NCBI GenBank assembly: GCA_946621745.1
Contig: CAMOOV010000002.1
Span: forward strand, 1 to 46,185
Source of the DNA: an uncultured Ruminococcus sp.
GTDB taxonomy: Bacteria > Bacillota > Clostridia > Oscillospirales > Ruminococcaceae
DNA: 46,185 nt
Direction of reading: 5' to 3'
This document shows, piece by piece, positions 13,953 to 16,779 of this stretch. The translations under genes and the position numbers were made by a program. Within the stretch, counting starts at the first letter, position 1, and each line of letters begins with the position of its first letter. Under the pieces are notes generated by a model. It was given only the letters and a program-made list of their open reading frames with translations, had not been told where the DNA came from and searched no databases.

Positions 13953-14873
13953 TTATTTTGCGTCAGCAACTCTGACTGCGCCGCTCAGTGCGGTGTACTG
14001 ATAATCATCGCAATCAGAGGTGATGAACTTGGTGTAGTACGGTGCGACGGAGATCGTGTAAACATCGCCCGTCTTTGCGTCCTCCGGAATCTGGTACTCG
14101 TATTCCGCGACGACATAGCCGTCCTGCACGGTGATGTTGTTGGCCTGTGCCGCGACGACGCAGCCCTCATTCTCAGAGAAATTCGGGTTGAGAATCGGCT
14201 CGTTATCCGCGAAATCCGTCCACTGCGGATGCTGCTCCAGATTCGACTTGATTTCGACAAGCTCCAGCGGCAGATCGTGCTGAATGAGCAGCTGGAAGCC
14301 CGCGAGCTTCGGCAGACCGCACAGATAGACCGGAACGGAAACAGTCTCGCCCGCTGCACCGGAAGCGCAGCCGATCTCGATATACATACCCTTCAGCTTT
14401 GCTTCCTGGGCTTCCTGCCAGACTTTGACAAACTGTCCGTTTTCATCGAGAACATAATCGCCGTTTTCGTCCTTCAAATAGACCTCACGCGCCTCATTGC
14501 CGTAGAACGCTTTGCCGTCCGCATAGGACAGATTGCGGATCTCCGCCCAGAGCGGCTTGTCTCCGACGAGCGTCTGGCAGTAATACTGGAGAATGTACTC
14601 CGCATCAGCCGCGGAGAGCTTTCCGTCCATATCAATGTCCAGCTGCTCGTTCGCGCTGTCAACGCTGCCGTCGGTATTGCCGGCAACAACATCTGCGTAA
14701 AGGGACAGCGTGTTCTGTGCATCCTCTGCGCCGATGACCTTGTCATCGTTGAAGTCTCCGGTCAGCTTCAGCGTATTGGCCTCGGCGGATGCGGTGAGCG
14801 GCATTGCTGCACAGACGGTCAGAGCCGCGGCAGCTGCGCAGACTGCGCTCATCATTTTCATTGTTCTTTTCAT
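13953..14873 (-). CDS. secreted protein with N-terminal dockerin-like and C-terminal cohesin-like domains
   Basis: Signal peptide MKRTMKMMSAVCAAAAALTVCAAMPLTASA; GDFNDDKVIGAEDAQNTLSLY...LDIDMDGKLSAADAEYILQYY; C-terminal IEIGCASGAAGETVSVPVYLCGLPKLAGFQLLIQHD...IPEDAKTGDVYTISV. Confidence 0.85.
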   Translation of the reverse strand: MKRTMKMMSAVCAAAAALTVCAAMPLTASAEANTLKLTGDFNDDKVIGAEDAQNTLSLYADVVAGNTDGSVDSANEQLDIDMDGKLSAADAEYILQYYCQTLVGDKPLWAEIRNLSYADGKAFYGNEAREVYLKDENGDYVLDENGQFVKVWQEAQEAKLKGMYIEIGCASGAAGETVSVPVYLCGLPKLAGFQLLIQHDLPLELVEIKSNLEQHPQWTDFADNEPILNPNFSENEGCVVAAQANNITVQDGYVVAEYEYQIPEDAKTGDVYTISVAPYYTKFITSDCDDYQYTALSGAVRVADAK

Positions 14874-14962
14874 AGTGTGAACCTCCTTGCATGATTTGTT
14901 TGAAATGGATGATCGTGAAACGGTCGGGGGCGGATGCCGTATTTCCGTCCCGCTGCAACATA

Positions 14963-14987
14963 AACAATCGGGGCGGCAAAATGTCCC
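14963..14987 (-). promoter_or_regulatory. candidate ECF-type promoter of dockerin/cohesin gene
   Basis: Minus strand GGGACA-N13-ATTGTTTAT; same gapped motif as 15066-15090 on plus strand. Confidence 0.5.
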
Positions 14988-15065
14988 AAAGAAAAATGCA
15001 ATTTGTATGACTGCACAAATATGCCTCTTGATTATTGTGCATATCACCGAATTTTGCTGGGAAAC

Positions 15066-15090
15066 GGGACAAACCGCGCCTGAAATTGTT
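15066..15090 (+). promoter_or_regulatory. candidate ECF-type (autoregulatory) promoter of the sigma factor operon
   Basis: GGGACA-N13-ATTGTTATA; matches motif on opposite strand upstream of divergent gene. Confidence 0.5.
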
Positions 15091-15160
15091 ATAGTAGTAA
15101 TGGATGATAAAGTGAATGACCGCACGGCTTTAGCCGGACGGTGCGGAAGGAAGTGATCGG

Positions 15161-15652
15161 ATGCCGGATCCGGAGCAGAATGCTGCGGCTGAGGAGCTGT
15201 ACCGCAAATATGCAAACTTTGTATACAGTATCGCGCTTTCATATCTGAAAAATCCCGCCGAGGCAGAGGATGCGGCCGCCGATGTATTTATGCAGGTGCT
15301 GGAATCCGGCATCGCATTTCCTGACAGTACAAAGGCGCGCGCGTGGCTCGCAGCGGCGACGCGCAACCGCTGTAAGAATCTGCTGAAGCAATGGCAGCGG
15401 AAAAAACGCGCACCCGAGGAGATCATGGAGCAGATCCCGGTCTCCGACCTGACATCGGAGCTGCGCAGCGTCATGGATGCGATCTTCGATCTGCCGGAAA
15501 AATACCGGCTGCCGCTTTTGCTGTTCGCAGTCGAGGGATATTCCGTACATGAGACAGCAGCGATCTTAAAGCTCAACGAAAGCACCGTGCGCACGCGCAT
15601 TGCCCGCGCACGCGAAATCATACGAAAGGAAACGGGGGTGGAGCAGGCATGA
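15161..15652 (+). CDS. ECF-subfamily RNA polymerase sigma factor
   Basis: EELYRKYANFVYSIALSYLKNPAEAEDAAADVFMQVL (region 2) and LPEKYRLPLLLFAVEGYSVHETAAILKLNESTVRTRIARAREII (region 4). Confidence 0.95.
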   Translation: MPDPEQNAAAEELYRKYANFVYSIALSYLKNPAEAEDAAADVFMQVLESGIAFPDSTKARAWLAAATRNRCKNLLKQWQRKKRAPEEIMEQIPVSDLTSELRSVMDAIFDLPEKYRLPLLLFAVEGYSVHETAAILKLNESTVRTRIARAREIIRKETGVEQA

Positions 15653-16779
15653 AGCAGCAGAACGATCATGAGGAGCGGCCGGAGATCTACCGGCAGCTGC
15701 AAGGAAAATTTCAGATGCAGCCGGAACAGATGCAGCGGCTTGCCGAGCGCCTGAATATCCGCGCATCGGCAGCGGCACCGGCAGAGGAGCCCGTGCGCCG
15801 GCCGGAGACAATGCCTGCCGCTTCACAAAATGCAGATACAGCCGAAGAAACACCGATCCGTCAGCACAAGACCTTCGGAGGCTATTGGTTTGCCGCCCGC
15901 GCACTGCCGCTGGCAGCCGGCCTGACACTGGCTGTCGCCGGTGCATTCTGGATGCACGGCAGCTTCCGTCAGCCGGAGAATGTGCTGGATGCGGGATCTT
16001 CCGATGTTTCGGATTATGTGGCGGAGCAGACCGCGCCTGCCCTGACAGCAGATGCGCCTGTCACAACCGCCGGAACGACCGTGACTGCTGCACAGACGAC
16101 AGCCTCCGGAACGGCCGCGCAGACGGAGATCACCCGGACGGAAACGGTCAGAACCGAGCCGGTCACGCAGACGGCGGCAGCGCAGACGGATTCCGTGCAG
16201 ACGGAAGATCAGCAGGGCGCTGTCACGGAGATCCGTCCGCAGACACAGGCGCCCGCCGAACAAACGGCAAAGCCTGTCACGACAGCGGCACCCGTTACGA
16301 TCGCAGTGCAGACAACGGTGACGCAGACACAGACAGAGGTTGTCACGCAGCAGCCGGCCGAACCGGAGATACCGGATGATGTGAACATCTATATGGCGGA
16401 CTGCACCGGCAGAGCCGGCGAGACTGTCGAGATTCCGGTCATCTTTGCAAAGGAGACAGCCTTTGCGGGTATCCAGTGCGAGTATCAGTTCATCCCGCAG
16501 AACGGCACAGTGCCGGAGATCACCGATGCGGATACGGATATCACCGGCTCTACGCTGCACTGTATCGAAAATTTGGTGATCCTGGCATACGGAGAGAGCG
16601 AGAAGCAGACCTTTTCCGGGGGCGTGCGCGTGATGCTCCTGACTGTGCGGATCCCGGATGATGCCCGTGCGGGTACGGTCTGGACAATGGAAAATATCAC
16701 GACGATACTGGCAGACAAAGAAACAAAGCATCTTCCGGTCAGTGTAAAGCTCGGCACCCTGACAGTGACAGAGAACTGA
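15649..16779 (+). CDS. single-pass membrane protein (putative anti-sigma/sensor) with T/Q-rich linker and C-terminal extracellular cohesin-like domain
   Basis: ATGA overlap with sigma gene; TM AARALPLAAGLTLAVAGAFWMHG; TTVTAAQTTAS...QTQT linker; VNIYMADCTGRAGETVEIPVIFAKETAFAGIQCEYQF...IPDDARAGTVWTM...LGTLTV. Confidence 0.85.
   Translation: MKQQNDHEERPEIYRQLQGKFQMQPEQMQRLAERLNIRASAAAPAEEPVRRPETMPAASQNADTAEETPIRQHKTFGGYWFAARALPLAAGLTLAVAGAFWMHGSFRQPENVLDAGSSDVSDYVAEQTAPALTADAPVTTAGTTVTAAQTTASGTAAQTEITRTETVRTEPVTQTAAAQTDSVQTEDQQGAVTEIRPQTQAPAEQTAKPVTTAAPVTIAVQTTVTQTQTEVVTQQPAEPEIPDDVNIYMADCTGRAGETVEIPVIFAKETAFAGIQCEYQFIPQNGTVPEITDADTDITGSTLHCIENLVILAYGESEKQTFSGGVRVMLLTVRIPDDARAGTVWTMENITTILADKETKHLPVSVKLGTLTVTEN

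Follow-up and report, generated by a model that had tools for sequence, protein, structure and literature searches.

Sensing in the regulation of cellulosome genes has so far been described through substrate-binding modules carried by RsgI proteins of Clostridium and Acetivibrio. In Clostridium thermocellum and its relatives, SigI and RsgI are encoded in one operon, with RsgI comprising a short cytosolic N-terminus, one transmembrane (TM) segment and an extracellular sensor; the pairs are tied to cellulosomal genes and occur as many paralogues per genome (PMC3413522, PMC6056542). The RsgI sensors in the literature examined are CBM, GH, PA14, Fn3-like, peptidase-like or unknown modules. Classical pairs of an ECF sigma factor and a membrane anti-sigma factor are represented by SigV/RsiV of Bacillus subtilis, in which the ligand of RsiV is a protein, lysozyme (PMC4183432). 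In the open-access literature searched (subscription journals not covered), no anti-sigma factor bearing a cohesin or dockerin was described, and no sigma-based control of Ruminococcus cellulosomes.

The DNA analyzed here, referred to as the window, is a stretch of 46,185 nucleotides at the start of contig C2 in the draft genome of an uncultured Ruminococcus sp. (2.97 Mb, 307 contigs, 88.8% complete). It contains a locus that we consider reasonably likely to be an ECF sigma/membrane anti-sigma switch with a cohesin as its sensor, controlling the operon that encodes it as well as a cohesin adaptor. The features of the locus are as follows.

13953–14873, minus strand: gene for P3, the divergent secreted dockerin–cohesin protein, 306 aa (Pfam Cohesin, profile, model)
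14963–14987, minus strand: ECF-like promoter element GRGACW-N13-ATTGTT, directed toward the P3 gene (pattern and spacing conserved)
15012–15041, no strand assigned: palindrome TGCACAA-N16-TTGTGCA, centred between the two promoters (genus-wide pattern search)
15066–15090, plus strand: ECF-like promoter element GGGACA-N13-ATTGTT, directed toward the sigma operon, ~70 nt before the sigma start codon
15161–15652, plus strand: gene for an ECF sigma factor, 163 aa, with sigma2 and sigma4 (Pfam; 17 of the 30 congeneric genomes have an orthologue)
15649–16779, plus strand: gene for the predicted membrane anti-sigma partner, 376 aa (ATGA overlap, topology, conserved orthologues; the anti-sigma role is inferred)
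16372–16776, plus strand: cohesin ectodomain, 135 aa, of the membrane partner (orthologue profile, AlphaFold2, Foldseek)

The sigma factor, its membrane partner and their conservation

The sigma protein matched Sigma70_r2 (5.5e-13) and Sigma70_r4_2 (3.4e-12) in Pfam, both above cut-off, and has the sigma2 and sigma4 domains only, as in ECF sigma factors. Its gene ends in an ATGA shared with the start of the TM-protein gene, in agreement with the overlap described in an earlier sequence-only reading of this DNA. The TM protein has a single hydrophobic segment at approximately residues 82–103 with positive charges on the inner flank, preceded by ~75–80 residues predicted to be cytosolic and followed by a T/A/Q-rich linker of 136 residues that leads to the C-terminal domain. 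Hydropathy and charge bias in the orthologues describe a single-pass protein with a cytosolic N-terminus and an outer sensor, encoded in an operon with the sigma factor. An anti-sigma role is predicted for it from operon position, gene overlap and topology. No recognised anti-sigma domain was found by Pfam in the cytosolic part, and none of the 17 TM-protein orthologues has HxxxCxxC within its first 110 residues. The latter result extends to the whole orthologous group what had been remarked of the ~75 cytosolic residues here, and rules out a zinc anti-sigma identity.

The SigI/RsgI comparison made in the sequence-only reading held as a functional likeness and failed as a family assignment. 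The present pair shares the operon, topology and cellulosomal setting of those systems; however, SigI has a SigI-C domain where the present sigma factor has Sigma70_r4_2 (sigma4), and RsgI carries RsgI_N (PF12791), which had no match in the TM protein and none above cut-off in the 30 genomes of the genus. SigI/RsgI identity was therefore rejected. The sensors also differ in kind, as a cohesin is an assembly module. Compared to classical ECF/anti-sigma pairs, the locus has in common with SigV/RsiV the two-domain ECF sigma factor, the overlapping downstream TM partner and a putative self-regulated promoter, but is set apart by the cohesin ectodomain on a long T/Q-rich linker, by the lack of a recognised anti-sigma domain and by a narrow set of targets centred on a cohesin–dockerin gene.

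Conservation was assessed across 30 genomes of the genus, with sigma orthologues defined by E ≤ 5e-43. Orthologues were present in 17 of these. A near-identical sigma gene (99%) is found in Ruminococcus sp. UBA4350 (L023). Wherever the gene after the sigma orthologue could be read, it encoded a TM–linker–cohesin protein and was joined to the sigma gene, so the synteny check proposed in the sequence-only reading came out in its favor. A P3-like dockerin–cohesin gene lies divergently beside the sigma gene in most loci and is sometimes duplicated; it is displaced by a few kilobases in G001 and G006, a second copy is displaced in G009, and in G002 and G016 it is found on a different contig from the sigma locus. 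Gene order and architecture are conserved across the genus, far beyond chance, with an ectodomain identity of 20–28%. One decayed sigma/TM–cohesin locus (L215, G015:C63) has broken reading frames, preceded by a promoter element that still looks intact. Beyond the genus, the ectodomain profile had no match within ~1.5 kb on either side of the closest sigma homologues in other members of the family.

Cohesin fold of the ectodomain and the divergent adaptor

Searches with the full-length TM protein as a single sequence against Pfam, NCBIfam and the PDB gave no match, and the excised ectodomain alone reached Pfam Cohesin only below cut-off (E = 0.018). Among the orthologue ectodomains, 7 of 17 matched Pfam Cohesin (best 1.1e-5), and a profile of all 17 searched against the PDB gave as its best match 5n5p_A, cohesin 5 of Ruminococcus flavefaciens ScaB (E = 1.4e-8). 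The AlphaFold2 model of the ectodomain (pLDDT 94.8, pTM 0.88) retrieved cohesins as all of the best 50 Foldseek matches in the PDB, with query TM-scores up to ~0.79; the fold matches included the non-cellulosomal cohesin folds of Archaeoglobus (2xdh) and C. perfringens (2jh2). The C-terminal 135 residues of the TM protein therefore have a cohesin fold, as the sequence-only reading had suspected when it named fold prediction as the check. This identity is visible only through the orthologue profile and the model. That divergent Ruminococcus cohesins can be missed by sequence profiles yet show in AlphaFold2 models is a recognised difficulty (PMC11557425).

The ectodomain evolves rapidly. Outside the closest relative, its identity between species is 20–28%, compared to 49–99% for the sigma orthologues, and its mean distance is 0.73 versus 0.57 for the P3 cohesin. 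In a tree of the cohesins, which has weak support and long branches, all 17 sensor ectodomains fell outside the P3 group and 16 clustered together, with one cohesin from this same genome among them. The tree gave no support to a recent origin of the sensor cohesin by copying from that of P3.

The divergent gene most likely reads from 13953 to 14873 on the minus strand (306 aa); the 429-aa frame given by the ORF finder begins too far upstream. By eye, P3 has a signal peptide and two dockerin calcium loops. Pfam detected Cohesin above cut-off (1.5e-5) and Dockerin_1 below cut-off (0.3), and a P3 orthologue profile matched the dockerin of ScaH (3.7e-9) and the cohesin of ScaE (7.4e-8). These results bear out the earlier description of a secreted protein with an N-terminal dockerin and a cohesin. 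With one dockerin and one cohesin, P3 corresponds to a monovalent adaptor scaffoldin, as do ScaH and ScaC of R. flavefaciens. The ScaH dockerin is the nearest solved structure to that of P3; in contrast, ScaH is listed as Coh-Doc and P3 has the reversed, dockerin–cohesin order. The Gly-Arg pair of group-4 dockerins is missing from P3 at the expected positions, as judged by eye. AlphaFold2 modeling of whole P3 gave a usable cohesin fold and a poor dockerin (pLDDT about 55–65), and intramolecular pairing was left uninterpreted for that reason. Unlinked or displaced P3-like genes at three loci (L179 449–1130, L180 and L185) have leaders of 650–800 nt, part of which is conserved and may code for a ~30-aa peptide that begins with TTG downstream of AGGAGG. 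Rfam had no match to the window or to the long leaders searched from displaced P3 genes.

ECF-like promoter elements of the sigma/P3 intergenic region

The bipartite element GRGACW-N13-ATTGTT is present on both strands of the sigma/P3 intergenic region and is conserved upstream of the sigma gene in orthologues, where GRGAC and TTGT are separated by 15 nt, rarely 16. In the site list, the gap between the two facing elements was exactly 79 bp in all eight divergent loci measured. The strict pattern gave 51 listed matches in the 30 genomes, part of them unrelated, compared to eight for the reversed control, and the only two full composite sites in this genome are both in the sigma/P3 intergenic region. 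The element also lies upstream of unlinked or displaced dockerin–cohesin genes in G002, G016, G001, G006 and G009. The sequence-only reading had linked the sigma factor to its divergent neighbor through regulation; a promoter element common to both directions, and found again ahead of unlinked dockerin–cohesin genes, points to such a link. Most sites read GRGACATTT or GRGACTTTT, and this T-tract after the core is similar to that reported after the −35 motif of ECF promoters (PMC6056542).

The regulon was searched with short patterns and with a sequence profile, 110 nt long, for which 25 sites were used. At E ≤ 1e-7 the profile matched 38 sites in 19 genomes, namely the 17 with a sigma orthologue, G026, in which the contig ends at the site, and G015, which has the decayed copy; no site of this strength was found in the remaining 11 genomes, and the two strong matches of the present genome both lie between the sigma and P3 genes. 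As 25 of the sites trained the profile, independent weight falls on the sites ahead of displaced or unlinked P3-like genes, which were first found by the short pattern, and on held-out sites such as those in G029. A further site precedes the gene for a dockerin protein in G014, and in G020 one short-pattern site lies ahead of a gene for an LRR-dockerin protein. The unlinked adaptor genes of G002 and G016 are directly downstream of a different sigma/TM pair, so the assignment of the motif to this sigma factor rests on co-occurrence.

The palindrome TGCACAA-N16-TTGTGCA forms part of the composite sites and was found genus-wide at about three copies per genome, with none for the reversed-pattern control. 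It also stands ahead of several other ECF sigma genes and of dockerin–serpin genes, such as those at about position 2900 of L219 and 2400 of L223 (serpin assigned by eye). Given this second, more global element at the site, another regulator probably acts there too.

Cellulosomal modules on sigma partners and the proposed switch

With about 18 cohesin and about 137 dockerin matches in total, the genome is very probably that of a cellulosome builder. Another ECF family has about 18 members in this genome and 2–35 per congeneric genome (loci L228–L272). Each of the expanded-family sigma genes checked was followed by the gene for a one-TM partner with a 4-nt overlap (ATGA), which was present in all 39 distinct N-termini collected for this family; the N-termini are conserved and the ectodomains very varied, including dockerin and unclassified modules and, in other genomes, LRR-plus-dockerin and PASTA modules. 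One such pair in this genome, C9 (L224 4292–7177, G000:C9), has a P3-type cohesin ectodomain and is followed by a P3-like dockerin–cohesin gene. In a further ECF sigma/one-TM pair, C4 (L225 4508–8876, G000:C4), the ectodomain ends in a dockerin (Pfam 8e-9); the pair is followed by an LRR-dockerin gene, and TGCACAA-N16-TTGTGCA precedes the sigma gene. None of the other paralogous TM partners had an anti-sigma domain above the Pfam cut-off, and alignment of the cytosolic N-terminus of the present TM protein with those of the expanded-family partners was limited to the TM region. The present locus is therefore one case of cellulosomal modules on sigma partners, and these modules are found with at least two unrelated N-terminal types. 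Partners of two paralogous sigma factors in other genomes (L128 1370–2983, G001:C45, and L130 3132–4856, G009:C14) have T-rich linkers and apparently two putative cohesin-like repeats each.

For the present locus we propose that the short cytosolic part of the TM protein would hold the sigma factor at the membrane. When an extracellular protein with a dockerin engaged the ectodomain, the sigma factor would be freed, probably by regulated proteolysis, and free sigma factor would transcribe its own operon and the gene of the dockerin–cohesin adaptor. The most likely working mode is that of a supply gauge, in which unassembled dockerin proteins would occupy the sensor, new adaptor cohesin would be made and the dockerins would be taken up, closing the switch; this last part of the scheme is a proposal only.

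The ligand could instead be the dockerin of P3 itself, a possibility raised in the sequence-only reading, so that the adaptor made by the sigma factor docks on its own sensor in direct feedback. The common promoter element and divergent layout would suit this arrangement, as would a P3 dockerin that has two calcium loops and matches ScaH, and the ScaH dockerin of R. flavefaciens FD-1 recognised its own cohesin, a precedent for pairing within such proteins (PMC5301203). We nevertheless regard direct feedback as doubtful. Co-variation between the sensor ectodomain and the P3 dockerin gave no co-evolution signal (partial r = 0.20), in what is a weak test of 10 loci, one of them mis-extracted. Moreover, at three loci of this genome the sensor and the neighboring product carry the same type of module, cohesin with cohesin or dockerin with dockerin, and we therefore lean toward competition for one ligand rather than direct product binding. 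If both the sensor and the product competed for the same dockerin, the wider pattern would be explained at least equally well.

Two further readings do without a dockerin as the signal. The ectodomain might be a generic beta-sandwich that senses something else, such as polysaccharide, cell-wall material or mechanical load on the linker. Its low identity next to that of the sigma orthologues (20–28% versus 49–99%) speaks for such a reading, cohesin folds do exist in non-cellulosomal proteins (2xdh, 2jh2), and other TM partners of the genus carry PASTA or unclassified ectodomains. This is unlikely, however, in a genome with about 137 dockerin matches, where the gene with the common promoter element itself encodes a cohesin–dockerin protein and where a cohesin recurs on the non-orthologous partner C9 and the third partner, C4, bears a dockerin. 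It seems quite improbable that the TM protein is no anti-sigma factor at all and serves as a membrane-held cohesin anchor, co-transcribed with a sigma factor that controls surface scaffolding genes. Some scaffoldins are anchored to the membrane or wall (PMC11557425), and a cytosolic part of just about 75–80 aa with no known anti-sigma domain would agree with an anchor; yet the N-in, C-out single TM segment and the cytosolic N-terminus, which an anchor would not need, are conserved in the orthologues, and throughout the genus the sigma and TM genes overlap (39 of 39 N-termini collected for the expanded family) whatever the ectodomain.

If the TM protein is an anti-sigma factor that bears a cohesin, assembly itself would be the signal, with a concrete promoter motif, sensor and target, and engineered sigma switches would gain an input that is modular and of high affinity. 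A cohesin sensor together with a promoter element common to a cohesin–dockerin gene suggests that transcription may be adjusted to the state of cellulosome assembly. More broadly, and tentatively, it is possible that cellulosomal Ruminococcus monitors how far its own cellulosome is assembled. Cohesins and dockerins carried by membrane anti-sigma factors, which would form one arm of the expanded ECF sigma/TM family, would then act as occupancy gauges setting the transcription of matching scaffold and dockerin genes.
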